Origin: Gordonibacter massiliensis (ex Traore et al. 2017)
GTDB taxonomy: Bacteria; Actinomycetota; Coriobacteriia; Coriobacteriales; Eggerthellaceae
Length of the DNA: 64,000 bases
Direction of reading: 5' to 3'
Assembly (NCBI GenBank): GCA_900170005.1
Contig: LT827128.1
Location: 3,282,168 to 3,346,167, forward strand
Made by a program: the position numbers and the translations under genes. This document shows positions 30,731 to 51,959 of this stretch, piece after piece; position 1 is the first letter of the stretch; every line of letters begins with the position of its first letter. The notes beneath the pieces are model-generated. The model was not told where the DNA came from and made no database searches. It saw only the letters and a program-made list of their open reading frames with translations.

Positions 30731-30788
30731 ACGACCACTACGATGGTTCTCGCTTCTTAGGCGATTTTGCTCGTTATCCTCGGTGGGG

Positions 30789-30817
30789 CTGATTGTCGCA
30801 CGACAAAATGTTATCCT
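30789..30817 (+). promoter_or_regulatory. promoter with GntR-type operator, nrfD unit
   Basis: CTGATT (30789-30794), 17 bp, TATCCT (30812-30817). The near-palindrome TTGTCGCACGACAA occupies 30793-30806, overlapping the -35 end and the spacer. The GT-N6-AC core fits the GntR-family operator rule. The same motif in the same position lies before the dmsCAB-like unit at 33335-33384. Confidence 0.75.
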
Positions 30818-30850
30818 GTGTGGCGAACCCGAAGCGGCGAGAGGGGAGCG

Positions 30851-31777
30851 GTGGCGTTCGGCGAGCTTATCGTGTGGTACCTGTTCCTGGGCGGCACCGC
30901 CGCCGGGAGCTTCGCGGTGCTCTCTGCCGTCGACCTCTACACGGCCTTCTCTCCGGCGGTCAACCCGCGTTTCGCCCGAACGCCCTGCGGGTACGTGGGC
31001 AATCGCTCGCATTCGACCACGCAAAGACGCATCGCGCGGACGGGATACGCCATCGCCTTCGCCCTGCTCGTGGTGGGCATGCTGTGCCTGCTGGCCGACT
31101 TGGGGCGGCCCGAGGCGTTCTACCTGCTCTTCCTCTATCCCACGAGCAGCTTCGTGTCGATCGGCACGTTCGCGCTCACGCTGTTCGCGGTGTGCTTGGC
31201 CGTGGCGCTTGCGGAGTCCGTGCTGACGCTCGGACCTGTGTGGGAGAAGGTCTCGCTTGCCGCGAAGGCGCTTGGCGCGGTGTTGGCGGTCGTCGTCATG
31301 GTGTACACGGGACTGCTGTTGCAGAACGTCGTTGCGGTGAGCCTGTGGCGGTCTGCGTGGCTGCCCGTCCTCTTCCTGCTGTCGGCGCTCTCGTGCGGGT
31401 GCGGAGTCGTTCTTCTGAGCACCTGCCTGTGCGAGAACTACACGGGTGCGCTCGCGTGGATCCGCGGTCTTTCGCTGGTGGACGCGTGCGTTATCGTGCT
31501 CGAAGCGGTTGCGGCTGCGGCGTGCGCGGTGACGGTGAACGCCGCGAGTGCCGCGCGGCCGTTCGACGCGCTGCTGGTCGGCGACCAATCCGCGGTGTTT
31601 TGGCTCGGTTTCGCAGGCTGCGGTATACTTGCGCCGCTGGTCCTCGAAACGTCCGCGCTGGTCGCTCGGCGCAGCCACCGAAGCGGCGTCGTGGCCGCCA
31701 TGGCGGCGCTCATCCTAATCGGCGGTCTGAGCTTGCGGTTCGTGCTCGTGAACGCCGGCGTCCAAACCGCAGTCTGA
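30851..31777 (+). CDS. NrfD/PsrC-type quinol-interacting membrane subunit
   Basis: A 308-residue membrane protein with eight or more segments, starting FGELIVWYLFLGGTAAGSF, which is typical of NrfD/PsrC subunits that exchange electrons between menaquinol and an iron-sulfur partner. LLADLGRPEAFYLL matches the family's second-segment motif. The start is GTG 30851 with GAGGGG upstream; the frame extends to 30767, but that stretch includes the promoter. No iron-sulfur or catalytic gene follows directly; the likely partners are coded from 33567 onward. Confidence 0.85.
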   Translation: MAFGELIVWYLFLGGTAAGSFAVLSAVDLYTAFSPAVNPRFARTPCGYVGNRSHSTTQRRIARTGYAIAFALLVVGMLCLLADLGRPEAFYLLFLYPTSSFVSIGTFALTLFAVCLAVALAESVLTLGPVWEKVSLAAKALGAVLAVVVMVYTGLLLQNVVAVSLWRSAWLPVLFLLSALSCGCGVVLLSTCLCENYTGALAWIRGLSLVDACVIVLEAVAAAACAVTVNAASAARPFDALLVGDQSAVFWLGFAGCGILAPLVLETSALVARRSHRSGVVAAMAALILIGGLSLRFVLVNAGVQTAV

Positions 31778-31794
31778 GGAAACGGCGAGACAGA

Positions 31795-32199
31795 ATGGTG
31801 ACGAAGGAAATACCGGCATTCGCTTTCAACGATCAGAGCGATCTGCCGCTTTGGGTGCAACTGCGCGACCGCATGGCGTTCCTCATCAACTCGGGGTTCT
31901 ACAAGCCCGGAGAGAAGCTGCCCACCGTGCGCAAGTACGCCGCCGATTTGCACATAGCCTACAACACGGTCAGCAAGGCGTACATGGGCCTCGAACGCGA
32001 CGGTTACGTGACCACGGTGCGCGGCAGCGGCGTGTTCGTGAACGATCTGGGCACGTCGCATCGCGAGGACGGCCACGTCGACGTGCTGGTCGAGGAGTTC
32101 GTGAGAAGCTGCCTGGAAGAGGGAATGACGTACGACGACATACCCAAGCTCGTGTCCAAGCACATTCGGAAGGTGAAGAGGGCTCATGAAGAGAAATAG
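31795..32199 (+). CDS. GntR-family (YtrA-like) regulator
   Basis: A 134-residue short GntR protein: PLWVQLRDRMAFLINSGFYKPGEKLPTVRKYAADL, the recognition region with YNTVSKAYMGLERDGY, the RGSGVFV wing, and a short C-terminal helix pair that replaces the usual effector domain. It starts 18 bp after the NrfD gene and overlaps the SPFH gene by 14 bp. Its own operon and the next one carry matching operators, so it is the best candidate for their regulator. Confidence 0.9.
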   Translation: MVTKEIPAFAFNDQSDLPLWVQLRDRMAFLINSGFYKPGEKLPTVRKYAADLHIAYNTVSKAYMGLERDGYVTTVRGSGVFVNDLGTSHREDGHVDVLVEEFVRSCLEEGMTYDDIPKLVSKHIRKVKRAHEEK

Positions 32200-33154
32200 C
32201 AAAGAGTGCGCCGAACGGGACGAACGGGACTCGTATCGGCGCTCCGAGATGGAGTTTGGCGTGGCGGCCGACGCCTACCGATCCGACCCCAGCAGGAAGG
32301 CCACGCGCAACGGCGCCGTGATGGTGACCGTCGTGCTGGCGCTGGCGGCCTTTCTCGCGGTTCTCGCGCTGTGGTACGCGGTGTCGGGGGGACTCAGCCT
32401 GATCGGTATCGCCGTGGCGGTGTGCGTGGGGCTTGCGGTGCTCTCGTCCGTGCACGTGTGCTTGGAGTGGGAGCGCGCGGTGATCATGCGGCTGGGGCGC
32501 TTCAACCGCCTGGCGGGCCCCGGCATCTTCTTCAGCATCCCGCTGATCGAGTTCAGCACGCTGCGCGTCGACCAGCGCACGACCGCCACGCCGTTCGGGG
32601 CGGAGGAGGCGCTGACGAGCGACTTGGTGCCGCTCGATGTGGACGCCGTGCTGTTCTGGATGATATGGGATCCCGAGAAAGCCTGCATGGAGGTGGAGGA
32701 CTGCCGCTTCGCCGTGGCGCTGACCGCGCAGACGGCGCTGCGCGACGCCATCGGGCGCGCGTCGGTGTCCAACGTGGTGATGCGGCGGCACCAGCTCGAC
32801 CAGGAGCTGCAGGAGGCGGTGGAGGCGAAGGTCACCGACTGGGGCATCACGGTGCTGTCGGTGGAGATTCGCGACATCATCATCCCGAAGGAGCTGCAGG
32901 GCGTCATGTCGCTCGAAGCGCAGGCCGAGTGCCGCAAGAACGCGCGCATCACGCTCATGGAGGCCGAGCGCGACGTGTCCGCCATTTTGCAGGAGGTCGC
33001 AGAGACCTACACCCACGACGAGATCGCGCTCTCGTTGCGCAAGATCCACCTGGTGTACGAGGGCATGCAGGACAACGAGGGCACCGTGGTGGTGCCGAGC
33101 GCCTACAGCGAGGGCTTCACGATGGATCCGAACAAGGACGCTCCGAAGAAGTAG
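32186..33154 (+). CDS. SPFH/band-7 (stomatin-like) membrane protein
   Basis: A 322-residue slipin/stomatin-type protein. Two membrane segments lie at about residues 45-85, followed by the band-7 domain from WERAVIMRLGRFNRLAGPGIFF to about residue 270 (VSNVVMRRHQLDQELQEAVE and VEIRDIIIP are typical), and a short C-terminal tail. Such proteins form membrane-bound rings and organise or protect membrane complexes. Linkage in one operon with an NrfD subunit and a GntR regulator is unusual. Confidence 0.9.
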   Translation: MKRNSKECAERDERDSYRRSEMEFGVAADAYRSDPSRKATRNGAVMVTVVLALAAFLAVLALWYAVSGGLSLIGIAVAVCVGLAVLSSVHVCLEWERAVIMRLGRFNRLAGPGIFFSIPLIEFSTLRVDQRTTATPFGAEEALTSDLVPLDVDAVLFWMIWDPEKACMEVEDCRFAVALTAQTALRDAIGRASVSNVVMRRHQLDQELQEAVEAKVTDWGITVLSVEIRDIIIPKELQGVMSLEAQAECRKNARITLMEAERDVSAILQEVAETYTHDEIALSLRKIHLVYEGMQDNEGTVVVPSAYSEGFTMDPNKDAPKK

Positions 33155-33334: not shown

Positions 33335-33384
33335 AAAAATTGTCGTGCGACACTCTTGATTGTCGCACGACAATTTTTCATAAT
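33335..33384 (+). promoter_or_regulatory. double GntR-type operator and promoter, dmsCAB-like unit
   Basis: Two copies of the motif form a perfect 18-bp inverted repeat (33335-33352 and 33361-33378): TTGTCGTGCGACAC at 33340-33353 and TTGTCGCACGACAA at 33360-33373, centred exactly 20 bp apart. TTGATT (33356-33361), 17 bp, CATAAT (33379-33384) form a good promoter around the second copy. A 180-nt leader with a small hairpin (33446-33452 with 33463-33469) follows. Confidence 0.85.
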
Positions 33385-33566: not shown

Positions 33567-34340
33567 ATGGGGCTTGAATCTTTGTATCTGTTCACTATGC
33601 TGGGGGGCTTGGCTGCCGGCGCGTACGCGTTCGAGACCGGCCTGCGCCGCAAGCGCGAGGGCGCGCGGCCTTGGCTCGTTCCCCTGGTCGTCGTCGTGCT
33701 GTTCGCCGTGGGGATGATCGCGGCGGCGACGCACGTGCACAGCATTCCGCGCGCCATCGAATCGGTGTTCGGCGGCACGGTCAACTTCGGATCCGGCATG
33801 ATTCAGGAAGTGGCCGTCGCCGGGTGCTTCCTGGTGCTGGCCGTCGTCGACCTTGTCGTCACGTTGGTGAAGAAGGGCAGCCCTTACGCGCTGCGCATCG
33901 CGGGCGCCGTCGTCGGCGTGGTCTGCATGGTTATGATGGGCCTGGCTTACACCGACATATACGGAAGTCCCGTCTGGTGCAACGTCCCGGCGACCGTCGT
34001 CTCGTTCCTCGCCGGCGACCTGGCGATGGGCCTGGCCTTGTTCGCCCTGCTGGGTTCCGCGAGCTACGACGAGAAGCCGCTGCGCTGGTCGGCCTTCATC
34101 GTGAACGCCGCGCTGGCCATCGGCCTGTGCCTGGAGGCCGTCGCGTTCAACGGCGTCGGACTGAGCCCGATAACCCAGATCGCGGGACTCGTCATCGCGC
34201 CGGTCGCATCCGTCGTGCTCGTGGCGCTTTCGTCGAAGATCAAAAACAAGACGGTGCTCGCGATTGCTGTCTGCGTCGTATCGATTGTCGGCATCGCCAT
34301 CGCGCGCTACGCGTTCTACGCGGCCTGCATGGTGGCATAA
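33567..34340 (+). CDS. DmsC-like membrane anchor subunit
   Basis: A 257-residue hydrophobic protein with about eight segments, starting LYLFTMLGGLAAGAYAFETGL, and resembling DmsC-type anchors that oxidise menaquinol for DMSO-reductase-family enzymes. The start at 33567 has GTGGAGG upstream; the frame is open to 33483. The catalytic subunit gene begins 22 bp after its stop, so a DmsC-A-B order applies here instead of the usual A-B-C. Confidence 0.8.
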   Translation: MGLESLYLFTMLGGLAAGAYAFETGLRRKREGARPWLVPLVVVVLFAVGMIAAATHVHSIPRAIESVFGGTVNFGSGMIQEVAVAGCFLVLAVVDLVVTLVKKGSPYALRIAGAVVGVVCMVMMGLAYTDIYGSPVWCNVPATVVSFLAGDLAMGLALFALLGSASYDEKPLRWSAFIVNAALAIGLCLEAVAFNGVGLSPITQIAGLVIAPVASVVLVALSSKIKNKTVLAIAVCVVSIVGIAIARYAFYAACMVA

Positions 34341-34362
34341 GGAAGCGAAGGGGGATTTAATC

Positions 34363-36990
34363 GTGAGCATTCAATCCAAGAACATATCGCGTCGCGGCTT
34401 TCTCGGAGCCTCTGCGGCGGTTGCGGCGAGCGTCGCGCTGCTTTCGAGCACGGGCTGCTCCGCCGAGTCGAGCCTCAACGTTGCCAACAAGCACCAGCTG
34501 CCGACCGACCCGGCCGAAGGCGGGGAGTGGGTTGCGGCCGCATGCTGGCACAACTGCGGCGGGCGCTGCATGAACAAGGTCATGGTCAAAGACGGCGCCG
34601 TCGTTCGCCAGAAGACCGACGACACGCACGCCGACTCGCCCGACTACCCGCAGCAGCGCGGCTGCGTGCGCGGCAAGGCCCAGCAGCAGCAATGCTTCGG
34701 GGCCGACCGCCTCAAGTACCCCATGAAGCGCAAGAGCTGGTCGCCCGAGAATCCGAACGGCGAGAAGCGCGGCGTCGACGAGTGGGAGCGCATCAGCTGG
34801 GACGAGGCCATCGGCTACATCGCCGACCAGTTCAAGACCATCAAGGAGAAGTACGGCAACCAGGCCTTCCTCATCGGCAGCTACGGCTCGCGCCTGGCGT
34901 TCGCCCCGCTTCTGGCGTACGGCGGCCACACCTCCGTCGCCGACTCCACGTCGCACGGCGCGTACTTGCTGAACACGGCCGACACCATCGGCATCCCGCG
35001 GACCGACGCGGGCGTGTGCAACGACCGCACCGACATGCTGAACGCGGAGACCATCGTGCTCTACGCGTCGAACCCGGCCTGGTCGGCCGCCGGCACGCCG
35101 AGCTACCACTACATCCGCGCCAAGGAAGCGGGCGTGAAGTTCATCACGGTCGACCCCATCTACACGGCGTCCGCCCAGATTCTCGATGCCTACTGGATTC
35201 CCATCCGCACGGGCACGGACACGGCGTTCATGCTGGGCGTTGCCTCCGAGATGATCCGCCTGGACAAGGCCGAGGGCAACGTCGTCGACTGGGAGTTCCT
35301 GGACAAGTACACCGTGGGCTTCGACGCCGACCACAAGCCGGCCGACCTGACCGAGGACGTCAACTTCCTGGACTACCTGAACGGCGTCTACGACGGCGAG
35401 CCCAAAACCGCCGAATGGGCGTCCGCCATCTGCGGCGTGCCGGTTGAGAAGATCACCTACTTCGCCCGCGAGATCGGCAAGACGCATGACGTGTGGATGC
35501 TCCACAACTTCGCGGCCGCCCGCTGCAACGGGTCCGAGAACGTTCCCCAGCTGTTCATGACGCTCTCCGCCATGGGCGGCCACTACGGCAAGCCGGGCAA
35601 CTGCTCCGCCAACAACTACCACGCCAACGCCGGCAACGGCGGGCCGGCCCTCGTGAAGGGCGGCGCCTCCGGCCTGCCGAGCCTGAAGAACCCCATCGAG
35701 GGCGTCATTCCCGGCCCCCAGGCTTGGGAGGCGTGCTTCACGGGCAAGTACCGCAACGTGGGCGACTGGTACAGCGGGTCCGGCGCGCACGCGGGCGTTG
35801 ACGAGACGTGCGACATCCACTGCATCGTGCACGACGAGAACGCCTACCTGCAAACCGGCCCCAACATGAAGCGCGGCATCGAGGCCCATCGCAAAATGGA
35901 CTTCGTCATGGCGAAGGCGCAGTTCCTCACCACGCAGGCCCTGTACTCCGACATCGTGCTGCCCGTGACGACGCAATGGGAGGTTCCCGGCGGCCTGGCG
36001 GCTTCGAACCGCGAGTTCCTCTACTGCTTCTCCAAAGTGACGGAGCCGCTGTACGAGGCGAAGACCGACGTGGAGATCAACACGCTGATCATGGAGGCTC
36101 TGGGGCTCGACCCGAGCGCCGTCTACCCCATCAGCGAAACCCAGGCGTTCTTCAACCAGATCGCCGGCGCCACGGTCATCAAGGAGGACGGCTCCGGCAA
36201 GTACGAGCCGCTCGTCACCATCACCGAAGCCGACATCAAGGAATGGGGCGTCACCGGCAAGCCGCAGACCGGCCGCGTGGGGCTCAAGGAATTCGTCGAC
36301 AACGGCGGCTACCAGGTCGAGCGCAAGCTGGGCGATGCATACAGCTCGTTCATCGGCTACGCCGACTTCATCAAAGACCCCGAGGCGAACCCGCTGAAGA
36401 CCAAGAGCGGCAAGCTGGAGATAACCTGCCAGGCCAAGGCGGACCTGTTCAACAGCATCGGCCTGATCGACAAGGAATACCAGCCCTATCCCGAGTACCT
36501 CGTGCCCACCGTGGGCTACGAGACCACGTTCAAGGACGGGAAGATCGACGGCGAGGCGGGCGAGTACCCGTACCTGATGTTCAACCCGCACTACTTCAGG
36601 CGCTCCCACAGCGTGTTCAACAACTGCCCGTGGCTGCGCGAGGCGTGGCCGAACCCGGTGTTCCTCAACGCGAGCGACGCCGAGGCGAAGGGCATCGCGG
36701 ACGGCGACACCGTGCGCGTGTGGACGAAGTACGGCGAGGTGCTGCGCAAGGCCTGCTGCATGGAGAACATGCGGCCGGGAGAGGTGGGCATCCCCCACGG
36801 TGCGTGGGTGCGCGTGGACGAGAGCACGGGTATCGACCATGGCGGAGCCGACAACTACCTTATCGGCAACGACATCTCCGGTGGCGGCTTGACCAGCTAC
36901 AACAACAATAACTGCAACTTCGAGAAGTACACGGGCGCCGCGTTGGAAGACGACTGCGACACCGACAAGCGCATCATCGAGCTTGGCTAG
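34363..36990 (+). CDS. Tat-exported molybdopterin oxidoreductase, DMSO reductase family
   Basis: An 875-residue catalytic subunit. A twin-arginine signal (SRRGFLGAS, residues 9-17) precedes a hydrophobic stretch. C61, C65, C69 and C101 (C-x3-C-x3-C ... RGCVRGK) should bind the FS0 [4Fe-4S] cluster. The Mo-bis-MGD domain follows; a DSTSHGAY segment near 197-204 is where a Ser ligand to Mo would be expected, by comparison with DmsA. The C-terminal dinucleotide-binding domain holds NASDAEAKGIADGD. It would reduce or oxidise a small molecule outside the membrane; the substrate is not evident. The start is GTG 34363 after GAAGGGGG. Confidence 0.9.
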   Translation: MSIQSKNISRRGFLGASAAVAASVALLSSTGCSAESSLNVANKHQLPTDPAEGGEWVAAACWHNCGGRCMNKVMVKDGAVVRQKTDDTHADSPDYPQQRGCVRGKAQQQQCFGADRLKYPMKRKSWSPENPNGEKRGVDEWERISWDEAIGYIADQFKTIKEKYGNQAFLIGSYGSRLAFAPLLAYGGHTSVADSTSHGAYLLNTADTIGIPRTDAGVCNDRTDMLNAETIVLYASNPAWSAAGTPSYHYIRAKEAGVKFITVDPIYTASAQILDAYWIPIRTGTDTAFMLGVASEMIRLDKAEGNVVDWEFLDKYTVGFDADHKPADLTEDVNFLDYLNGVYDGEPKTAEWASAICGVPVEKITYFAREIGKTHDVWMLHNFAAARCNGSENVPQLFMTLSAMGGHYGKPGNCSANNYHANAGNGGPALVKGGASGLPSLKNPIEGVIPGPQAWEACFTGKYRNVGDWYSGSGAHAGVDETCDIHCIVHDENAYLQTGPNMKRGIEAHRKMDFVMAKAQFLTTQALYSDIVLPVTTQWEVPGGLAASNREFLYCFSKVTEPLYEAKTDVEINTLIMEALGLDPSAVYPISETQAFFNQIAGATVIKEDGSGKYEPLVTITEADIKEWGVTGKPQTGRVGLKEFVDNGGYQVERKLGDAYSSFIGYADFIKDPEANPLKTKSGKLEITCQAKADLFNSIGLIDKEYQPYPEYLVPTVGYETTFKDGKIDGEAGEYPYLMFNPHYFRRSHSVFNNCPWLREAWPNPVFLNASDAEAKGIADGDTVRVWTKYGEVLRKACCMENMRPGEVGIPHGAWVRVDESTGIDHGGADNYLIGNDISGGGLTSYNNNNCNFEKYTGAALEDDCDTDKRIIELG

Positions 36991-37003
36991 GGGAGGAGGA
37001 ATC

Positions 37004-37582
37004 ATGGCTGTTGGATTTTACCTTGACGTGACGCGCTGCATCGGCTGCCGTGCGTGCCAGGTTGCGTGCAAGGACAAGAACCGCCTCGAGGTCGGAACGC
37101 TGTACCGCGAGGCCCATAGCTACACGGTGGGGACGTTCCCCGAGGTCGACGGTTACAGCTACTCGTTCGGCTGCAACCATTGCGAGGAGCCCATCTGCCT
37201 GAAGAACTGTCCGACGGGCGCCATCTACAAGGCCCCCGACGGAACGGTCGTGCAGGATCAGAGCAAGTGCATCGGATGCCGCATGTGCGTCATGTCGTGC
37301 CCGTACGGCCAGCCGAAGTACTTCCCCGACGCGGGCGTGTCCGGCAAGTGCGACGGCTGCTACGGCCTGCGCGAGGCCGGCGGCGACCCGGCGTGCGTCG
37401 CAGGGTGCCCCAACCGTGCGCTCATGTTCGGCGACATGGACGACCTGCGCGCGGAATTCGGCGGAGATTTGGACAACGGCAGCATCGCCGTGCTGCCCTC
37501 TCCGAGCGAGACGCATCCGAACATCCTCATCAAGACGAAGGATTGCGCGTTCGATCAGGGATACCGGGAGCTGAACTGGTAG
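37004..37582 (+). CDS. DmsB-like ferredoxin subunit with four [4Fe-4S] clusters
   Basis: A 192-residue electron-transfer subunit. Four cysteine groups are visible: CIGCRACQVAC (about 13-23), CNHCEEPICLKNC, CIGCRMCVMSCPYG and CDGCYGLREAGGDPACVAGC. It carries electrons between the membrane anchor and the molybdenum subunit. GGGGAGGAGG precedes the ATG at 37004, which is 13 bp after the catalytic gene's stop, so the two are tightly coupled. Confidence 0.93.
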   Translation: MAVGFYLDVTRCIGCRACQVACKDKNRLEVGTLYREAHSYTVGTFPEVDGYSYSFGCNHCEEPICLKNCPTGAIYKAPDGTVVQDQSKCIGCRMCVMSCPYGQPKYFPDAGVSGKCDGCYGLREAGGDPACVAGCPNRALMFGDMDDLRAEFGGDLDNGSIAVLPSPSETHPNILIKTKDCAFDQGYRELNW

Positions 37583-37723
37583 CTTCCGTTCCCGCCGCGC
37601 CGCAAACCCCCTCCCTCCTGCGGCGCGGCGTTTTCCTTCCGGGGCGGGCGCCTTTGGCAGCCGTCCCGGAAGGCTGCTAAAGGAATCGCCAGCGCGCTCG
37701 CCTTTGGCGATCGCGCTCCCTTT

Positions 37724-37803
37724 GTAGGGCAAGGGCTCTGCCCTTGCCGACGACCTGCGGAAACGTTTCTTGCCGAGCGGCAAGGACAGGGCCTTTGCCC
37801 CAC
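37724..37803. repeat. CGTAGGG-type inverted repeat, copy F (GGGCTCTGCCC subtype)
   Basis: Imperfect 26-bp arms (37724-37749 and 37778-37803) in the 274-bp gap before the chaperone gene, with the inner GACCTGCGGAAACG stretch of copy E. It might weaken read-through from the reductase genes to the chaperone gene. Confidence 0.8.
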
Positions 37804-37856
37804 GAAGAGCGCGATGTTTCCGCAAAGCTAGACCTATGTGCAAGACAGGAGCTGCT

Positions 37857-38627
37857 ATGTCGAACAACGAGCGCGAAAGCGCGATAGCGATGATGCTCGC
37901 CCGTCGGGCGTACCTGTACCGCTTGCTGCACGTCGTGTTCGGCGGCCGGCCGAGCGGCGACGTCGTTTCCCCGCTGTTCGGCGAAGAGACGCTGGCCACG
38001 TTCGCGTACGTGAGGGATACGCTCTACCAAGACGAATACGCCGATCTTGCGGCGCGGCCCGCCGGCACGACCGGCCGCAGCCTGGCCGCGTGCGTCGACG
38101 AGGCGATAGCCTGCATCGAGAGGGCTGGGCGCGAGGCGGCCGATCCGACGCTGGCCGACAGCTTCGTCGAAGGCCTGCGGACCGACTACGACCAGCTGTT
38201 CCAGGTACCCGGCGACCGTTACGTGCATCTGTGGGAGTCTCCCTACACGGGCCAGGAGTCCATGGTGTTCCAGGAGAGCACGCTCGACGTGCGGGCGTAC
38301 TACCACGCCGCCGGATTCAAGCTGCAGGCCGAGAAGCGTTTCCCCGACGACCATATCGCTGCTATGATGGACTACCTCGGCTGCATGGGCCAGCGCGCGT
38401 ACGAGGCTTTCGCCGACGGTTGCGACGACGAGGTGCTCCAGACGCTCGCAACGCAGCGTCGGTTCGCCGAGCGGCATGTGCTGAATTGGGTCGATCTGTT
38501 CGCCGACAAGGTTGTCGAGCAGGACGTGCGCGGGTATTACGCCGCGTTCGCGCTCGGCATGGCGGCGTTCGTCCGCTTGGACGACGAGATGGTCGGTCGG
38601 CTCGAGAAGGAGCTGGCCGGGGAATAG
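37857..38627 (+). CDS. TorD/DmsD-family molybdoenzyme chaperone
   Basis: A 256-residue helical protein of the TorD family. The marker region is a WESPYTGQESMVFQEST segment followed by an YYHAAGFK segment; the DHIAAMMDYLG helix matches the D-H-x-x-x-x-L motif. Such chaperones bind the Tat signal and help insert the molybdenum cofactor. The start at 37857 has ACAGGAG upstream; the frame is open to 37770. Its place right after the reductase genes fits a dedicated role. Confidence 0.88.
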   Translation: MSNNERESAIAMMLARRAYLYRLLHVVFGGRPSGDVVSPLFGEETLATFAYVRDTLYQDEYADLAARPAGTTGRSLAACVDEAIACIERAGREAADPTLADSFVEGLRTDYDQLFQVPGDRYVHLWESPYTGQESMVFQESTLDVRAYYHAAGFKLQAEKRFPDDHIAAMMDYLGCMGQRAYEAFADGCDDEVLQTLATQRRFAERHVLNWVDLFADKVVEQDVRGYYAAFALGMAAFVRLDDEMVGRLEKELAGE

Positions 38628-38653
38628 ACGGGCGTTGAAACAGGAGGGGCAGC

Positions 38654-39955
38654 GTGGATCTCAGGGAATACACGCAGGCGTTCGACGAGGCCGAGCAGGA
38701 CTTCGAGGGCGCGGTCGAGGAATACGGCGTTCCGTTCGAGCGTGCGGAAACCTGCCCCCGCGAAGCGCGCGCCCGCACGGCGGAATCGTGCGGGTGCCGC
38801 TGCGAGAACGGCGCCGCCTCGCTGGTGCGGAACTGGATATCGCCCGCATGCCTGGCCTGCCGTACCGGCGAGGAGACGGCGACGTTCTTCGTCGATCTCA
38901 GGTGCACGAAGAACTGCTACTTCTGCTTCAATCCCAACCAAGACCACTACGAGTACTTCCTCAACCATGCGCGCGACATCGTGGCCGAGCTCGAGCAGGC
39001 GCACGCCGCAGGGGCCCGGTTCCGCTGCCTCGCCGTGACGGGCGGCGAGCCCATGCTGTATCCCGACCAGGTGAACGCTTTCCTCGAGCGCGCCGCCCAG
39101 CTGTACCCGGGCGTCCACACGCGCCTGTACACGAGCGGCGACCTGCTTGACGGGAAGGGCCTGCGGAGGCTCGCCGACAGCGGGCTTTCCGAGATACGCT
39201 TCAGCATCAAGCCGCCCGACGCCGATGACGGGCAGGAGGGCGTGTACGCGCTGATGGAGCAGGCGGTGGGCGTGATCCCCGACGTGGTGGTGGAGGTGCC
39301 CGTGATACCGGGCTCGCTCGCCGAGATGAAGGAGCTGCTGCGGCGTTCGGACGCCGTCGGCATCAGCGGGGTCAACCTGCTGGAGTTCTGCTTCCCCTTG
39401 CACAACGCCGCGGAGTTCGCGAAGCGCGGTTTCGAGCTGCGCAAGCATCCTTTCACGTTCCTGTACAACTACTGGTACGGCGGCGGAATCCCCGTTGCCG
39501 GGAGCGAGGCCGAGGCCTTGGAGCTTTTGGAGTTCGCCCATCGCGAGGGTCTGAAGCTGGGAATCCATTACTGCAGCTCGGACAACAAGAACACCGGTCA
39601 GATATTCCAGCAGAACACGGCGTTTTTCGCCGATCCGGCCCTGCGCCAGGCGCATCCGTGGATGCGCGCGGACGACGGCGACCGGTTCCTGAAATGCGCG
39701 AAGGCCTTCGGCGACGACGCGGAGCTCGTGCGCGCATGGGCCGACGCGGCCGGCTTGGACGGTTACGGGTACGACCCGGACGTGCCGAGCATCGCCTTCC
39801 CGAGCGACTGGGTCGATGGGCTGCGGAAGGCTTGCTCGACGGTGGTTCTGGGCGAAAGCGTGAACGTGGTGGAGGCGCGCGAGCCGCAGGCGGGGCGCGC
39901 CTCGGCCCGCCCCGACCTCTACCTGCGGGAAGTGGCCGTGCGAGAGCTTTCCTAG
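38654..39955 (+). CDS. radical SAM protein, partner of the molybdoenzyme cluster
   Basis: A 433-residue protein. An N-terminal region with six or more cysteines (SCGCRCENG and SPACLACRTGEE, residues 45-75) precedes the radical SAM motif CTKNCYFCFNPN (near residue 84) and TGGEPMLYPDQV. The rest forms a partial TIM barrel; a C-terminal HYCSSDNKNTGQ follows. It would cleave S-adenosylmethionine to start a radical reaction, and the extra cysteines could hold an auxiliary cluster. The start is GTG 38654 behind AGGAGGGG, 26 bp after the chaperone gene. I do not recognise a specific family; a role in maturing the reductase is inferred from position only. Confidence 0.85.
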   Translation: MDLREYTQAFDEAEQDFEGAVEEYGVPFERAETCPREARARTAESCGCRCENGAASLVRNWISPACLACRTGEETATFFVDLRCTKNCYFCFNPNQDHYEYFLNHARDIVAELEQAHAAGARFRCLAVTGGEPMLYPDQVNAFLERAAQLYPGVHTRLYTSGDLLDGKGLRRLADSGLSEIRFSIKPPDADDGQEGVYALMEQAVGVIPDVVVEVPVIPGSLAEMKELLRRSDAVGISGVNLLEFCFPLHNAAEFAKRGFELRKHPFTFLYNYWYGGGIPVAGSEAEALELLEFAHREGLKLGIHYCSSDNKNTGQIFQQNTAFFADPALRQAHPWMRADDGDRFLKCAKAFGDDAELVRAWADAAGLDGYGYDPDVPSIAFPSDWVDGLRKACSTVVLGESVNVVEAREPQAGRASARPDLYLREVAVRELS

Positions 39956-40007: not shown

Positions 40008-40038
40008 CGTAGGGCAAGGGCAGAGCCCTTGCCCTACG
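40008..40038. repeat. CGTAGGGC hairpin, copy G
   Basis: Perfect 13-bp stem (40008-40020 with 40026-40038) and 5-nt loop, between convergent genes. It is the most compact copy of the family and a good terminator shape, though without a long T run. Confidence 0.8.
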
Positions 40039-40105: not shown

Positions 40106-41611
40106 CTATATCTTCACGTGCCCGAACGTGATGATGGAGTAGATGAGCCCGGCGATGCCCAGCGCCACCACCACGGCCACGATGACCTTGTCGGAGGTCT
40201 TCGCGAACAGCTTCGCCTTCGGGTCGTGCTGGCGCACGCCCACGATGTAGAGCGGCAGGCCGATGGCGTACACGATGCACGCCACCATGAGGTAGTTCAA
40301 GCCGGCGGCGTAGATGAGCCACAGGCCGTAGAGCGAGCCCGCCGCGCCGGTGAACACGGCCATGTTTCGGCTGGCGAATATCCCCTGGGGATATTCTTTC
40401 TTAATGGCTATCTTGAACAGGAACAACGTGCAGAACAGGTAGCACGGCAGCGCCATGACGCTCGTGATGCTGATCATGGTGGTCCAGGCGTTGCTGCCGA
40501 TGAAGAACGAGATGATAAGCACCACCTGCACCACGATGGTGGTCCACAGAAGCGACGTGGACGGCGAGCCCTTCTTGTTCTCCTTCGTGAATGCCTTGGG
40601 GAAGATGCCGCTCTTCGAGGCGGCCAGCGGCATCTCGCCCAGCATGAGCATCCACACGAGCCAGGAGCTCAAGACCGAGATGATGACGCCGGCGTTCACC
40701 ATGATCTCGCCCCATTTGCCGAACTTGTCCAGCATGATGGCGGCCATGGAGGGGTTGGCCATGTTGCCGATGTCGGCCTGGGAGTACACGCCCAAGGGCA
40801 GCAGCGACACGATGATGTAAAGCGCCAGCGTGACCAAGAAGCCGATGGTCGTGGCCTTGCGCACGGCGGCCTGCGACTTCGCCTTGCCCGACACCACCAC
40901 GGCGCCCTCGATGCCGAGGAACAGCCACAGCGTGACGAGCATCGTGGCCTGCACCTGCGGCATGACGTTGTCCCAGGTGAAACTGAGGTCGATAGTGCCG
41001 TGCATGCCCCAGAAGCCCTCCATGAACACCGAAAGCTTGAACACGGTGGCCACGGCCAGGATGAAGATGGCCACCGGCAGCAGCTTGCCGATGGTGCCGA
41101 TGATGTTCAGGAAGCTGGTCTGCTTCGCGCCCTGCAGGGCCAGCAGGTACATGACCCACGTGATGATGGACCCGCCGATGATGGACGGGATGTTGTTTCC
41201 GCCCGTGAAGTCAGGCACGAAGTAGTTGAGCGTGGCCATGACCAGCACCGAGTACGCCACGAGGGCGAAGCAGTTGCAGATCCAGTAGCCGTAGGCCACG
41301 AAGAAGCCGATGAGCTTGCCGAAACCCTTCTCGGCGTAGGTGTACAGGCCGTTCGTGAGCTCCGGGCGGGCGGCCGAGAGGATGCGGAACGTGTTCGCGA
41401 TGAACCAGATGCCGATGCCCGTCACCACCCAGGCGATGATGATGGCTCCTGCGGAGGCGTCCTGCGCCATGTTCTGGGGAAGGCTGTAGATGCCTCCGCC
41501 GATCATAGCGCTGATGACGATGCCCACGAGGCCTATCAGGCCAACCTTTTTGGTGCTGTCCTGGGCCTTCGCCGGCGCGCCGCTGGAGCTGGATGTGGTT
41601 TTGTCTGCCAT
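40106..41611 (-). CDS. hdcP: APC-family amino acid/amine antiporter, probable histidine-histamine exchanger
   Basis: A 501-residue membrane protein with 12-13 segments. The N-terminal GLIGLVGIVISAMIGGGIYSLP is the basic amino acid/polyamine antiporter (ArcD-like) signature. By sequence alone it would be called an arginine-ornithine antiporter; the adjacent histidine decarboxylase gene makes histidine in and histamine out the better guess. AAGGA precedes the ATG. It is second in a two-gene operon, 119 bp after hdcA, with a hairpin between. Confidence 0.85.
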   Translation of the reverse strand: MADKTTSSSSGAPAKAQDSTKKVGLIGLVGIVISAMIGGGIYSLPQNMAQDASAGAIIIAWVVTGIGIWFIANTFRILSAARPELTNGLYTYAEKGFGKLIGFFVAYGYWICNCFALVAYSVLVMATLNYFVPDFTGGNNIPSIIGGSIITWVMYLLALQGAKQTSFLNIIGTIGKLLPVAIFILAVATVFKLSVFMEGFWGMHGTIDLSFTWDNVMPQVQATMLVTLWLFLGIEGAVVVSGKAKSQAAVRKATTIGFLVTLALYIIVSLLPLGVYSQADIGNMANPSMAAIMLDKFGKWGEIMVNAGVIISVLSSWLVWMLMLGEMPLAASKSGIFPKAFTKENKKGSPSTSLLWTTIVVQVVLIISFFIGSNAWTTMISITSVMALPCYLFCTLFLFKIAIKKEYPQGIFASRNMAVFTGAAGSLYGLWLIYAAGLNYLMVACIVYAIGLPLYIVGVRQHDPKAKLFAKTSDKVIVAVVVALGIAGLIYSIITFGHVKI

Positions 41612-41730: not shown

Positions 41731-42687
41731 CTACTTGGAGAGCTTCGTCAGCGACTTGAAGTCCATTTCCTTCAGCCAGTCGGACAGGTTCATGTCGTTG
41801 AGGGAGTTGAAGCCGGTCACGGGCACGGCGTTGCGTGCGAGCGTGATGTAAGGGCCCACCGTGATGGCGTTGCCGATCTCGCCCGGCTTCATCATGCGAT
41901 GCGCGAAGCCCACGTAGGTGCGATCGAACAGCACGTTGGAATCGCGGCCGCACTCCACGACGGACCAGACGATCTCCTTGCGGTGCTGCTCTAGGAAGGC
42001 CACCATGTCCTTCTCGTTGTCGTTCTTCGTCCAAATGCCGGCGTCCTCGATGAACAGGTCGGCCGCGAAATCGCGGTCGGCGGACAGCGAGATGGCGATG
42101 AACGACCACACGCCGTACCCCTCGCCGTCCTTCAGCGCGCGGTCCTTCTTCGGACGGTAGGCCGTGACGCCCTTGTTCGCGCAGATGGTGTGCGCGCCGG
42201 GGATGGGGTGGTAGCGGCGGTTGTTCGCCGTGCCGAACAGCTCGATGCCGGCGTCCAGCAAAGGAGCGGCGTCGAACACCTTGAGCTTGCTGCCGTCGAA
42301 CTGCTTCTCGGTGAACAGCGGCTTGCTCTTGCCCGACGTGATGTCGTCGTGACGGGCCAGGTCGTAACCCCATACCTGGCCGGCCATGCCGCAGAACGAC
42401 GAGGCCGTGAGCATGTTGATCTGGCCGATGTAGGCATCGGCCGTCTCGGCCTTGTCGTAGGTGACGATGCGGTCGATGAGGCCGTCGCTGGTCTTCTCTA
42501 CCGTGCCGGCCGAAACCTTCAGCACCGACACGTAGCCGTTTCCGTAGGCGCCGGGCATGCCGTAGCCGTCGCTGTAATCGTCGTAAGGGCTGATGGCGGT
42601 CTTGTCGATGTGCGGTGCGCGCATGCTGGCGTGGTAGTCGGCCTCTCGGGCGATGGTGCGGTTCCTGCGTTCCTCGATGTTCTTCAT
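41731..42687 (-). CDS. hdcA: pyruvoyl-dependent histidine decarboxylase
   Basis: A 318-residue proenzyme of the pyruvoyl histidine decarboxylase family known from Lactobacillus 30a. Matching landmarks are AISPYDDYSDGY, IGNGYVSVLKV-like GNGYVSVLKVSAG, AETADAYIGQINMLTASSF, CANKGVTAYRPKKD, GYGVWSFIAIS, VECG and GEIGNAITVGPYI. The Ser-Ser pair in TASSF (near residues 98-99) is the self-cleavage site that gives the beta chain and the pyruvoyl alpha chain. It turns histidine into histamine and CO2. AAAGGAGAG precedes the ATG. With the antiporter it would give acid tolerance or proton motive force. Confidence 0.93.
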   Translation of the reverse strand: MKNIEERRNRTIAREADYHASMRAPHIDKTAISPYDDYSDGYGMPGAYGNGYVSVLKVSAGTVEKTSDGLIDRIVTYDKAETADAYIGQINMLTASSFCGMAGQVWGYDLARHDDITSGKSKPLFTEKQFDGSKLKVFDAAPLLDAGIELFGTANNRRYHPIPGAHTICANKGVTAYRPKKDRALKDGEGYGVWSFIAISLSADRDFAADLFIEDAGIWTKNDNEKDMVAFLEQHRKEIVWSVVECGRDSNVLFDRTYVGFAHRMMKPGEIGNAITVGPYITLARNAVPVTGFNSLNDMNLSDWLKEMDFKSLTKLSK

Positions 42688-48019: not shown

Positions 48020-48583
48020 ATGCTGTGTCTCGAATTCGCCGATAGCAGATGGTACGCGCGCCACAAACCCTACGCCGATCCGCTCGATGACGCATCGTGG
48101 CGCGAGCGGTTCTGCACGGCATGGGAGCTGCCGCGGCTGCCTCAGGGCGGCGACGCTTTGGATGAGCTCAAAAGCTTTCGCGAGACCGTGTTCGAAGCCG
48201 TCACGATGCTCAGCAGGGAAGGCCGGGTGGATCCTGCCGCTATCGACAGGATGAACCGGGTGCTCGCAAGCGACGCGAGGTCGATCGAGCTTGTGCGCGA
48301 GAATGATCGCTACGTCGTCTCGACGGTGTGCGGTGCGAGCGACCTTGCTATCGTGCAGGGCGAGATAGCCCGATCGTTCGTCGAGCTGGCCACGGAAAAG
48401 CCCCTCGATCGACTCAGGATATGCGCGAACCCTTCGTGCGGCTGGGTGTTCTTCGACGAAAGCAAGAGCGGGACGCGGAAGTGGTGCGACAATCGCTGTG
48501 CCAGCCTCATGAAGGTGCGCAAGCACCGCGCACTCAAAAAAAGCGCTGAGGAACTAGGCACTATCGACAGCGCATCCCGCTAG
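48020..48583 (+). CDS. CGNR-type zinc-finger protein (ABATE domain)
   Basis: A 187-residue probable regulator. The N-terminal LCLEFADSRW begins the ABATE (DUF1470) domain; the C-terminus has ICANPSCGWVFFDESK and RKWCDNRCASLMKVRKHR. The four Cys of the zinc finger are kept, but the motif reads CDNR in place of CGNR. The start at 48020 follows GGGAGGGGG; an upstream ATG at 47990 has no good site. It overlaps the end of the MoxR-type gene by 4 bp, tail to tail. Confidence 0.83.
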   Translation: MLCLEFADSRWYARHKPYADPLDDASWRERFCTAWELPRLPQGGDALDELKSFRETVFEAVTMLSREGRVDPAAIDRMNRVLASDARSIELVRENDRYVVSTVCGASDLAIVQGEIARSFVELATEKPLDRLRICANPSCGWVFFDESKSGTRKWCDNRCASLMKVRKHRALKKSAEELGTIDSASR

Positions 48584-50172
48584 CTCTCTTCTCCCGTCAG
48601 GTCCAGTTGGTTGATGCGATCGGCCAGGTCGGAGCCTCGTTCGTTGAACAGGAGGGCCTCGTTGTGGGCGAAGTAACGCTCGCAGCCGTGGTCGTTGATG
48701 AAGGCCATGCCGTAGCGGTTGGCCGACAGGTCGGTCACCAGCAGCAGCATCTCTTGGCCCTCGCCGAACGCGTCCTCCACGAAGCGGAAGGCGTGGTCGA
48801 GCGCCTCCGACGTGGCGGCGATGCGCGTGTCAAGCGCATCAACCATCTCACCAAACAGGTTTTTGACCTGCGAGAACGAAACGCTTCCTGTCGCATTGAC
48901 CCGATGCGCGCGGTCGAGCAGCGCGAGCGTGCGCTCGTAGGCCAGGTACTTCTCGTCTGAGAGCAGGCCGCTTTTGCGCTCGGCGTCCAAACGGCGCTGT
49001 AGGGCGGCCGCTTCCTCGCGCACGAGCGGCAGCGCGTCGGCGGCGTCGATGGCTGTTGCCGCAGGGGATCCTTCGACTGCGCTCACTCCGTTCGCTCCGC
49101 TCAGGATGACAGAGGGAGCGTCAGCTCCGCTCAGGATGGTATCCCGCATCGCGGCCAGCCGCCCGTGCGCGAATTCCACCGCGTGCTCCTCCAGCACGGC
49201 GTCGCGCAGTCGCCCGCCTAGCGCGTCCGTGATCAACCCCATGAGCGACACCCGTTCGTCGAACGCGGCCGCGCGGGCGCGTTCGACGATGCCCTCGTCG
49301 GCTTCGCCTGCCAGGATGCGGTCGATCTGGTAGTCGGCGCGGTACTTCGAGAACAGGTCGTAGTACACGCTGAAGCGCTTCGCGATCTCCGCGTTCTGCA
49401 CGTATTGGCCCACCAGCAGCTCGTCGACGGGGATGCCCTGCTCCTCGTACAGCTTCACCATGGCCGAGAGGTCGTCCCAGCCGCGCGCGGTGACGAACGA
49501 CTTGCCGTCCACCGTGGTCTCCACGCGGTAGAAGTGGTCGCGCTCGATGTCCAGGTACGTGAGCACGGCCGGGTGCACGCCGGTCTCCACGGCGAAGGCG
49601 CGCCAGGCCGCGAAGTCGGGCTCCACGTCGATGCGCTTGAGGCGGTCCCAGGTGGCGATGTCGAAGTCGTGCGCCGTGCGGTTGTACTCGGGCGGGTTGC
49701 CGGCCGTGACCACGATCCAGCCGTCCGGCACGCGGTGGCGCCCGAACACCTTGTACTGCAGGAACTGGAGCATGGCCGGCGTGAGCGTTTCCGACACGCA
49801 GTTGATCTCGTCGAGGAACAGGATACCCTCGGGATGCCCCGTGGCCTCCATCGCGTCGTACACGGCGGCGATGATCTCGCTCATGGTGTACTCGGACACG
49901 TCGTACTCCACGTTGCCGTAGGTCTTCTTCGCGATGAACGGCAGGCCGAGCGCGCTCTGCCGCGTGTGGTGCGTCATGGAGTACGACACGAACCCCACGT
50001 CCAGCTCCTGCGCGATCTGCTCCATGATGGCCGTCTTGCCGATGCCGGGCGCGCCCAGCAGGAACACCGGGCGCTGCCGCTCGGAGGGCAGACGGTAGTT
50101 GCCGAACTCGTCCTTCGCGAAGTACGCGAACATGGCGTTCTTGATTTGCTGCTTCGCTTGCTGGATGTCCAT
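48580..50172 (-). CDS. MoxR-type AAA+ ATPase
   Basis: A 530-residue protein. Residues 25-300 are a MoxR-like AAA+ domain: GAPGIGKT (Walker A, near 39), LFLDEINCVSE (Walker B), TAGNPPEYN (sensor 1). Residues 300-345 link to a C-terminal domain of about 150 residues that I do not recognise; it ends NQLDLTGEES. Around residues 345-370 the repeat family TCATCCTGAGCGGA has been inserted twice, in frame (ILSGADAPSV then ILSGANGVSA). MoxR ATPases act with VWA proteins to mature or remodel complexes, and the gene beyond (50315) is such a partner. The start at 50172 has GAGGAGAGG upstream. Confidence 0.88.
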   Translation of the reverse strand: MDIQQAKQQIKNAMFAYFAKDEFGNYRLPSERQRPVFLLGAPGIGKTAIMEQIAQELDVGFVSYSMTHHTRQSALGLPFIAKKTYGNVEYDVSEYTMSEIIAAVYDAMEATGHPEGILFLDEINCVSETLTPAMLQFLQYKVFGRHRVPDGWIVVTAGNPPEYNRTAHDFDIATWDRLKRIDVEPDFAAWRAFAVETGVHPAVLTYLDIERDHFYRVETTVDGKSFVTARGWDDLSAMVKLYEEQGIPVDELLVGQYVQNAEIAKRFSVYYDLFSKYRADYQIDRILAGEADEGIVERARAAAFDERVSLMGLITDALGGRLRDAVLEEHAVEFAHGRLAAMRDTILSGADAPSVILSGANGVSAVEGSPAATAIDAADALPLVREEAAALQRRLDAERKSGLLSDEKYLAYERTLALLDRAHRVNATGSVSFSQVKNLFGEMVDALDTRIAATSEALDHAFRFVEDAFGEGQEMLLLVTDLSANRYGMAFINDHGCERYFAHNEALLFNERGSDLADRINQLDLTGEES

Positions 50173-50215
50173 GGTTCCTCTCCTCGCGGGCGATCGGTTG
50201 CTCGACGTGCGGTTT

Positions 50216-50301
50216 CGTAGGGCAAGGGCTCTGCCCTTGCCGCCCGCTCGGAAAAACCTTCGCGGGTTGAACGGCAAGGGCAGAACCCTTGCCCTACGGG
50301 G
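50216..50301. repeat. CGTAGGG-type inverted repeat, copy I (GGGCTCTGCCC subtype)
   Basis: Near-perfect 26-bp arms (one mismatch), between the VWA-type gene and the ATPase gene on the same strand. The inner sequence has the GGTTGAACGG of copy E. If transcribed it would form a strong hairpin between the two cistrons. Confidence 0.85.
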
Positions 50302-50314
50302 TCTCCCGCATCGG

Positions 50315-51844
50315 CTATTCTTCCAGAATGACGGTTTCGTCCAGGACCACTTTCATGGCCCAGGTGGGGACGGGCGGGCTCGCGGCGGCGGAGGCGTCGT
50401 CCACGAACACGAACGCCGCGTCGTAGTCGGGCTTGCGGGCGGGATAGGTGCCCTGCCCGTCGGTGAAGTAGATGAGGCCGCCCAGGTTCGTCAGGTCGCC
50501 GCGTTCCACGGCGGCATCCACGTAGGCGAACACGGGGCGGAAGTCAGTGCCGCCCAGCCCCTTGATCTCCAGATCGTCGAGGTAGGCTTCGAGGTCGGCC
50601 GGCGATCCGATGCGCGCGACGTCCGCGATGGCGGCGTCGCACTGCACTACGAGCACGTTCATGTCGGCGAAGAAACTCGTCTCGGCTTCGAGGATGGCGT
50701 AGGTCTTCTCGATGAAGCGGCGCACGAGGCCGTCCTTCGTGGAGGCCGAGGTGTCGATGGCGATGACGAAGTCGCGGATGCGCTTCTCCTCCACGTACTC
50801 CAGCGGCTCGACGAGTGGCAGGTTGCCGTACGTGCTCAGGCCGTAGCAGTAGTACACGTAGTCGAACTCGTCGTCGTTCACGCGTATCTGCTCTCCCATA
50901 CGGGCGAACTTGCGCAGGAACTCCCGGTAGTCCTGCTTCTCGCGCGTCACGGCGCGCAGGTTCATGGCCAGGTTCGCGCCGTTCACGCCCCAGAGCTTCG
51001 CGTACGCGTCCAACTGCACGCCCATCTCCAGCGCGGCGTTCTTCCATTGCTCGCGGGAACGGTCGAGGTTCACGGTGTCGGCGAAGCGCTCGCCTGCGGC
51101 GCGCGCGGCGTCCTCGGGCGCCTGCTTCTGCACGATGTCAGAAGGGTTCATGCCGCGCTGCGACGCGTGGCTGCGCTTGGCGGCGGCCGCGTCGGGCGGC
51201 AGGTCGGCGTCGGTCCCGTTCTCGGCCGGGCCGGCAGCAGGCGCGGCCGCGTCGCCTTCCTGCTCTTCGGCGCGGCCGCCGCCCTCGTTCGCGGCGGCAC
51301 CGCCTTCGGCGACGCGGGGACGGTGCCAGGGCTCGTGATCGTCGACGAGGAACGGCGCGCGGAGGTCTTCGAGCTCCTCAGCGGAGAGGCCCTCGTCGGC
51401 CAGGTAGCGGTAGACGGTCTCGGCCGTCACCACGGGCAGCGCGGCGTCGATGCGCGCGAGGGCGGCTTGCTGGCGCGCTCCTCGGGTGGTGCGGGTGGCG
51501 GGCAGGTCGAGCTCGGCGATGGTCCGCTCCACCGCGATGTCGCAGGCCGCGTCCCAGCGGGCGGCGTCGACGCCGTCGCCGGCGAAGGGATGCAGGAACA
51601 CGTTGTGCAGCACGACGTGCAGATAGGCTCGCGAAAGCGAGGCGGGCTCGGCGGCGTAGGAGCGCGCGAGGGACGCGGGGTCGTAGCGCAGGTGCGCGCC
51701 GTCGGTGGCCAGGGTGGAGCCGGGCACGGGCAAGGGGGCGAGGCGCGCGAAGGCGGCGTTCATGAACCGCAGGTTCACGAGCAGCGCGTTCTTCGCAAGG
51801 TCGAGCGCTTGCCGGGCAAGCGGTTCGACGGCTTCGGCAGTCAT
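50315..51844 (-). CDS. DUF2201-type metallopeptidase-like/VWA protein
   Basis: A 509-residue protein. The N-terminal domain has YLHVVLHNVFLHPF (near 95-108), a His-rich helix that resembles the zinc site of DUF2201. A low-complexity Ala/Glu/Gly linker covers about 205-260. The C-terminal VWA-like domain has FVIAIDTSASTKDG (a MIDAS-type DxSxS) near 365 and FTDGQG near 460. It is coded directly upstream of the MoxR-type ATPase, a pairing typical of MoxR-VWA systems. The start at 51844 follows AAGGAG. Confidence 0.87.
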   Translation of the reverse strand: MTAEAVEPLARQALDLAKNALLVNLRFMNAAFARLAPLPVPGSTLATDGAHLRYDPASLARSYAAEPASLSRAYLHVVLHNVFLHPFAGDGVDAARWDAACDIAVERTIAELDLPATRTTRGARQQAALARIDAALPVVTAETVYRYLADEGLSAEELEDLRAPFLVDDHEPWHRPRVAEGGAAANEGGGRAEEQEGDAAAPAAGPAENGTDADLPPDAAAAKRSHASQRGMNPSDIVQKQAPEDAARAAGERFADTVNLDRSREQWKNAALEMGVQLDAYAKLWGVNGANLAMNLRAVTREKQDYREFLRKFARMGEQIRVNDDEFDYVYYCYGLSTYGNLPLVEPLEYVEEKRIRDFVIAIDTSASTKDGLVRRFIEKTYAILEAETSFFADMNVLVVQCDAAIADVARIGSPADLEAYLDDLEIKGLGGTDFRPVFAYVDAAVERGDLTNLGGLIYFTDGQGTYPARKPDYDAAFVFVDDASAAASPPVPTWAMKVVLDETVILEE

Positions 51845-51959
51845 GGTCGCTCCTTCGAAACGTTGACGCTTGCCTTTGCCTCCGTCCGCAGTGTAGCATG
51901 GGGGCAGCGGGTGGTAAACAGATACGTTGTCGATATGTTTTGGGAGGCCGCACAATATT

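Follow-up and report, generated by a model that had tools for sequence, protein, structure and literature searches.

A candidate radical SAM maturase accompanying one clade of DMSO-reductase-family enzymes in Eggerthellaceae and Bacillaceae

What is a radical S-adenosylmethionine (SAM) protein doing beside the genes of a respiratory molybdenum reductase? The question is raised by a stretch of 64,000 nucleotides of Gordonibacter massiliensis (Eggerthellaceae), hereafter the window, which belongs to a genome made of a single contig of 3.95 Mb. Genes for a membrane anchor, for the molybdopterin catalytic subunit of an enzyme of the dimethyl sulfoxide (DMSO) reductase family exported by twin-arginine translocation (Tat), called MoA here, for its ferredoxin subunit (FeB) and for a TorD-type chaperone are followed there, after 26 bp, by the gene of a radical SAM protein (rSAM). 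A preliminary description, made from the window alone, had recognised these five genes at 33567-39955 on the forward strand, with the same spacing, and both positions and profile matches agree with it; genes and direction stand as it gave them, their order has to be amended, the anchor coming first and not third. Among several roles, it had proposed that the radical SAM protein could mature the reductase. This is now the best-supported option, rSAM being a conserved partner of the molybdenum reductase: we think it probable that rSAM works in trans as a maturase reserved for a single clade of DMSO-reductase-family enzymes, because it accompanies TorD and one clade of MoA proteins, and persists in one copy at a distance from several of them.

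The distribution of the two genes is the heart of the argument. The rSAM family is present in 85 of 138 Eggerthellaceae genomes (E 1e-30), in 7 of 396 genomes sampled across the window's phylum, every one of the seven being from Eggerthellaceae, in 28 of 193 genomes of Bacillaceae, the family of Neobacillus, and in 11 of 398 sampled Bacillota (the last two samples share at least one genome, G138). It is because the same partnership recurs in such distant bacilli that rSAM probably helps to build the reductase. When genomes are scored at E 1e-200 with a MoA profile of 13 rows (A3), 27 Bacillaceae carry both genes, one carries rSAM only (G532), one MoA only (G667) and 164 neither, a co-occurrence for which Fisher's test gives p ~1e-30, uncorrected for kinship. 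The same presence/absence test gives p 9e-16 in the Bacillota sample, with both genes in nine genomes, rSAM only in two (G901 and G1018), MoA only in one (G969, a partial match) and neither in 386. Even the three genomes that seem to keep rSAM alone have more distant MoAs, with best scores of 386, 380 and 348 bits for G532, G901 and G1018 respectively. This distant MoA adjoins rSAM in G901 and lies some 3 kb off in G532; G1018 has nothing but its distant MoA, but TorD is close to rSAM.

Linked genes can travel together, and the cases where rSAM and MoA are unlinked therefore weigh most. Five Bacillota rSAMs (in G838, G1060, G1062, G1099 and G1018) have no MoA called in the surrounding stretch; in the first four of these genomes MoAs at E <=1e-200 are found elsewhere. 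G1060 and G1099 possess at least nine clade MoAs each, together with one rSAM each, as expected of a shared maturase, and nine is a lower bound since scoring covered 79 of the 150 candidates in the former and 79 of the 102 in the latter.

The neighbourhood of the gene tells a similar story. Loci were collected as 100 regions, one of them spanning two matches, plus 37 Bacillota regions; the 137 rSAM matches were reduced to 126 by a filter for full length and start codon, then to 122 by removal of duplicate loci. Gene calls came from a simple script of our own that left out frames under 80 or 70 codons, so that lists of neighbours are approximate, and the cluster names PucR, polyferredoxin, AGCS and TatA, as well as those of two-component genes, were given by eye without Pfam. 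MoA lies within seven genes of rSAM in 67 of the 100 first-mapped loci (four duplicates among them). If a Mo-reductase cluster is defined by a same-strand MoA within four genes of rSAM, or by same-strand FeB and TorD nearby, such a cluster holds rSAM in 29 of the 35 rows from Bacillota and in 45 of the 87 from Eggerthellaceae; one and 12 further rows, respectively, are near a cluster, and five and 30 are alone, 20 of these 35 lying near the end of the stretch examined. Among the 28 Bacillaceae loci (L009 and L187-L213), 24 show rSAM followed on the same strand by TorD-MoA-FeB-DmsC, L009 having one small frame in between, and four (L187, L195, L207 and L213) deviate from this order; the operon usually comes with a polyferredoxin gene, and with a divergent PucR-like gene on the other side. 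TorD is the direct co-directional neighbour of rSAM in 41 of 126 full-length loci (a denominator with up to four duplicates), lying upstream of it in 17 of these loci and downstream in the other 24, which means that the pair survives a flipped gene order. Finally, of 76 same-strand MoAs within three genes of rSAM (duplicate loci counted), 48 score at least 500 bits with the MoA of the window. The preliminary description had proposed to check whether rSAM is kept beside the Mo subunit across genomes: the association does recur, in many genomes and in two phyla.

To which family does rSAM belong? Its place in the radical SAM superfamily follows from its profile (PF04055, 54.1 bits against a cut-off of 29.5) and from its CxxxCxxC motif, made of C84, C88 and C91. 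An alignment of 94 rows, 93 rSAMs that remain once sequences are thinned at 80% identity, together with the second copy of the G. massiliensis genome, shows C66, C69, C84, C88, C91 and C307 in all of them and cysteine at position 246 in 83. The extra cysteines (C66, C69, C307 and C246) are compatible with a putative auxiliary iron-sulfur (Fe-S) cluster. SPASM families of Pfam have no match at E 0.01 in the window's rSAM or in the second copy, which leaves room for a divergent or twitch-like auxiliary cluster. Not one NCBIfam model matches the window's rSAM at its cut-off, and named radical SAM families were rejected as its label. The best of them, HxsC (TIGR03977, the radical SAM maturase of the His-Xaa-Ser system), matches all 94 members at E 0.001; it covers just the core region of the window's protein (residues 70-170), at 38.8 bits, far below its cut-off of 267.9. 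Another comparison is with TIGR04317, by its NCBIfam name the radical SAM maturase of an oxidoreductase with a tungsten (pterin) cofactor. It is weakly similar to 21 of the 94 members (best E 6.1e-9), with no match to the window's rSAM at E 0.01, and differs in that the partner of rSAM is of the DMSO reductase family and that rSAM is without a SPASM match in Pfam. For members other than the window's rSAM, the comparison with NCBIfam consists of match counts and best E-values. Judged by these profiles, the window's rSAM belongs to an unnamed radical SAM family, the nearest named relative found being a protein of Gordonibacter sp. 28C (91% identity); an unrelated family of established function, which according to the preliminary description would have spoken against a link with the reductase, did not emerge, since no curated NCBIfam family claims the protein.

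The structure model (predicted local distance difference test, pLDDT, 95.4) matches radical SAM barrels generally: NifB (Z 16.8), viperin-like proteins (16.7) and SuiB (16.2) with VIA-align 2, SkfB being matched as well. It would be tempting to dwell on NifB, a maturase of a metalloenzyme (it acts on the nitrogenase cofactor) that heads the VIA-align 2 list over 209 residues with a root-mean-square deviation of 3.2. Yet at 16% identity, and with viperin-like proteins and SuiB within one Z unit, the likeness shows just the common barrel. The C-terminal domain modelled alone (pLDDT 92.8) finds nothing in the PDB with Foldseek at E <=0.001, a result that leaves a match possible.

How might such a protein contribute to a reductase that works outside the cytoplasm? 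TorD-type chaperones act in the cytoplasm. We would place the rSAM step there, before Tat export of MoA: TorD would hold the apo Mo subunit, and rSAM, by means of a 5'-deoxyadenosyl radical and with the probable help of an auxiliary Fe-S cluster, would act on this subunit or on its bis-pyranopterin guanine dinucleotide (bis-PGD) cofactor, installing a modification required by the reductase. What supports this at the level of sequence is the radical SAM core (CxxxCxxC and barrel fold), the extra cysteines, the pairing with TorD, the co-occurrence with MoA in two phyla, and the unlinked arrangement in four genomes. More tentatively, and with slightly less than an even chance in our eyes, the modification may be one that has not been described, post-translational or of the cofactor, installed with TorD before export across the whole DMSO-reductase-family clade, one copy of rSAM serving nine reductases per cell.

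Several observations weigh against a dedicated maturase and must be set beside those that favour it. A scan for residues specific to the core MoA clade returned 88 columns and no single candidate for the site of a modification. The MoA profile was built solely from rSAM-linked MoAs, and at most four, six and two MoA candidates per genome were scored in Bacillaceae, Eggerthellaceae and Bacillota, so that MoAs may have been missed. In Eggerthellaceae the agreement is looser, with 59 genomes having both genes, 26 rSAM only, 18 MoA only and 35 neither (n=138); at 1286 bits, rSAM is present in 27 of 28 core-MoA genomes, the exception (G132) being 77% complete, and this cut-off was picked after inspection of the list. 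In one genome, G017, no MoA reaches E 1e-200 although its rSAM, in which position 246 is Arg, is of the window's clade, and 28 of the 76 MoAs near rSAM score below 500 bits with that of the window. Transfer of the operon could by itself account for the linked cases. Last, Eggerthellaceae have a second rSAM clade, to which the other copy of the G. massiliensis genome belongs, and it is mostly found outside reductase operons, often beside AAA/VWA genes; in several genomes another molybdoenzyme lies three or four genes off. The role of this clade may differ from that of the window's. The preliminary description had reckoned that a gene found mostly elsewhere would undo the association: the window's clade sits mostly in Mo-reductase clusters, and it is for the second Eggerthellaceae clade that the objection holds. 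The neighbours of this stand-alone clade (in L081, the locus of the second copy, and in L115, for example) are often an AAA ATPase of MoxR-like type and VWA/DUF2201 genes. Relatives of these genes are also found within the window, at 48580-51973 on the reverse strand, about 9 kb from rSAM.

Other explanations have to be considered. Radical SAM enzymes perform much small-molecule chemistry, and rSAM might make or modify a small molecule in the reductase's own pathway, preparing the respiratory substrate or processing the product in the cytoplasm, so that the operon would be the pathway. That the gene lies in Mo-reductase clusters of unassigned substrate, with transporter clusters within seven genes in some loci (APC20 in 7 of 100, AGCS in 11 of 100), goes in this direction, as does the breadth of radical SAM chemistry. 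We nevertheless find it unlikely: TorD is a steadier neighbour of rSAM than any transporter, one rSAM coexists in two genomes with nine clade MoAs, which would hardly all share one substrate, and the reductase is exported, which would leave its substrate and rSAM in different compartments. For the same reason, the idea of the preliminary description that both proteins act on the same substrate has lost ground, the Mo subunit being Tat-exported and no export signal being recognised in rSAM. Its further suggestion of a substrate derived from host or diet finds no support here, since the same unit sits in Bacillaceae, Neobacillus included, and a gut-specific substrate is thus not implied.

A little less likely still is that rSAM is a maturase of ribosomally synthesised and post-translationally modified peptides (RiPPs), or a regulatory radical SAM protein, carried along by gene transfer. 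The best profile match is to a peptide maturase, the HxsC mentioned above with its 38.8 bits, the fold matches include SuiB and SkfB, and genes of an operon are often inherited together. Against it, no gene for a precursor peptide was recognised, none having been specifically sought and the shortest frames (under 80 or 70 codons) being uncalled; no Pfam SPASM family matches at E 0.01 in the two proteins scanned; and rSAM and MoA are both retained where they are unlinked. As for a mere accident of the molybdoenzyme-crowded genomes of Eggerthellaceae, to which the abundance of MoA matches in the G. massiliensis genome (72, some being two pieces of one gene) and the habits of the second rSAM clade would lend some colour, it is very improbable and was rejected on the Bacillaceae counts, where presence and absence agree (p ~1e-30, kinship uncorrected); the near-fixed operon of Bacillaceae and the shared operator described below also speak against it.

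Returning to rSAM as a putative maturation factor, its proposed client is of a familiar kind. MoA belongs to the DMSO reductase family (PF00384, 101.4 bits, and PF01568, 66.7 bits, each above cut-off). Its twin-arginine signal, RRGFLG, exceeds the cut-off of TIGR01409 (19.5 against 16.7 bits) and is under that of Pfam's TAT model (20.0 against 22.7). S197, conserved in 57 of 57 core MoAs, may by analogy with related sequences be a serine ligand of Mo, of Dms/Tor type. With DmsABC or YnfEFGH, assisted by DmsD or TorD, the unit shares a common plan: a Tat-exported molybdopterin subunit, a four-cluster ferredoxin, a membrane anchor and a TorD-type chaperone. FeB has 16 cysteines in four cluster motifs, as counted by eye. 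The window's unit differs in adding rSAM, a second anchor of NrfD type, an SPFH protein and a GntR gene with its operators. Its subunits score under the cut-offs of the dmsA/ynfE model (TIGR02166, 393.9 against 777.7 bits for MoA) and, slightly, of the dmsB model (TIGR02951, 190.1 against 214.1 bits for FeB). In the G. massiliensis genome, 72 matches to MoA (some of them two pieces of one gene) are accompanied by only two strong matches to rSAM, a third being partial (21 bits).

The unit is also larger than was at first perceived (Table 1). The five genes of the preliminary description hold; the upstream cassette NrfD-GntR-SPFH (about 30851-33154), which had gone unnoticed, bears the same palindromic operator as the DmsC-MoA-FeB-TorD-rSAM genes, and the order in the window's group is NrfD-GntR-SPFH-DmsC-MoA-FeB-TorD-rSAM. 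We infer a unit of eight genes marked by operators, in which a respiratory reductase is combined with two anchors of NrfD/DmsC type, an SPFH protein and a GntR switch. Neither NCBIfam (at E 0.01) nor Pfam (above cut-off) has a family that matches the DmsC-like anchor. NrfD clusters are neighbours of rSAM in 24 of 100 loci and SPFH clusters in 32 of 100, often with NrfD and GntR.

Table 1. Features of the reductase unit, in window coordinates
Feature	Position	Strand	Basis and remarks
Single operator TGTCGCACGACA	30794-30805	not assigned	Exact match, ahead of the NrfD cassette
NrfD-type membrane anchor	30851-31777	+	Start GTG inferred by eye; PF03916 115 bits, cut-off 25.8, scored on the longer frame 30767-31777
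Short GntR-type regulator	31795-32199	+	PF00392 46.6 bits, cut-off 27
SPFH / band 7 protein	32186-33154	+	PF01145 102.1 bits, cut-off 23.6
Paired operator TGTCGTGCGACA / TGTCGCACGACA with promoter-like TTGATT-17-CATAAT	33341-33384	+	Copies at 33341 and 33361
DmsC-like membrane anchor	33567-34340	+	Named from position and clustering with like genes
MoA, Tat-exported molybdopterin catalytic subunit, DmsA-like	34363-36990	+	Start GTG at 34363 inferred
FeB, four-cluster ferredoxin subunit, DmsB-like	37004-37582	+	TIGR02951 190.1 bits
Intergenic stretch FeB-TorD, 274 bp	37583-37856	+	Stable RNA fold, z -8.4; repeat recurring in the window
TorD-type chaperone	37857-38627	+	PF02613 87.8 bits, cut-off 22.2
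rSAM, radical SAM protein of unnamed family, barrel and C-terminal alpha/beta domain	38654-39955	+	PF04055 54.1 bits

The operator is the palindrome TGTCGYRCGACA, present as a pair 20 bp apart (33341-33372) and as a single copy at 30794; single copies sit at NrfD in other rSAM loci too. There are 46 exact matches to TGTCGNNCGACA in the collected loci (duplicates counted), the majority ahead of DmsC or at NrfD and a few inside other genes. The exact pair is found in 12 distinct loci, spaced by 20 bp in 11 and by 19 bp in one, and TTGATTG is conserved in all 12. Because the search used the exact palindrome, sameness of the operator across loci is there by construction, and it is the spacing and the spacer that constitute evidence. 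DmsC was called in 14 distinct loci: the pair occurs in 11 of them and one exact copy in L090, and the stretches covered for L099 and L140 contain no exact copy. In the G. massiliensis genome exact copies occupy seven places, three at this unit and four within open reading frames of at least 120 codons, two of the four coinciding with a SHDIRTP motif of histidine kinases. The GntR protein encoded in the cassette is probably the binder of these operators, as far as sequence allows one to say. Expression of TorD and rSAM may also be set at a level different from that of MoA, since the 274-bp stretch with its strong RNA fold and its repeat intervenes between FeB and TorD.

This repeat, around GTAGGGCAAGGGCTCTGCCCTTGC, is interspersed on both strands of the window (33171, 33227, 37724, 40009-40037, 46776, 50217 and 50274), with eight matches when up to three mismatches are allowed (shuffled sequences give a mean of 0); the FeB-TorD interval contains one of the copies. 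Scans of the window with Rfam (gathering cut-offs) and for tRNA gave no match. Downstream of rSAM and convergent with it are genes for a pyruvoyl-type histidine decarboxylase (PF02329, 565 bits; 41731-42687, reverse strand) and for an amino-acid permease (40106-41611, reverse strand), a pair that raises the possibility of histamine production by a gut bacterium; the permease cluster is found within seven genes of rSAM in 7 of 100 mapped loci.

With reference to what is known of molybdoenzyme assembly, the open-access literature (titles and abstracts, most subscription papers being outside it) does not tie this radical SAM family to DMSO-reductase operons. The term 'radical SAM' is absent from the main text of a review of molybdoenzyme maturation (PMC10609526), and occurs in the reference lists only of two other papers (PMC6650914; PMC7759655). 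An analogue is FdhD, the sulfurtransferase that acts for the Mo-bisPGD of formate dehydrogenase (PMC10609526): like the proposed role of rSAM, this is an accessory step reserved for an enzyme with Mo-bisPGD, catalysed however by a sulfurtransferase and not by a radical SAM protein. Radical SAM maturases of metalloenzymes are already known as a kind; one for the DMSO reductase family was not found in this open-access literature. If our interpretation is true, rSAM would carry out the first radical-dependent maturation step found for that family.

The matter is of some consequence for gut Actinobacteria. Molybdenum reductases abound in the Eggerthellaceae of the gut: Eggerthella lenta DSM 2243 has 34 such genes (PMC3306737), and the catechol dehydroxylases of these organisms are hard to obtain in standard expression systems (PMC11887054). 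Should the clade need its radical SAM maturase, this need could account for some of the failures of expression, and rSAM would provide a marker gene for sorting reductases without an assigned substrate. A radical step would then join the assembly of the enzyme itself.

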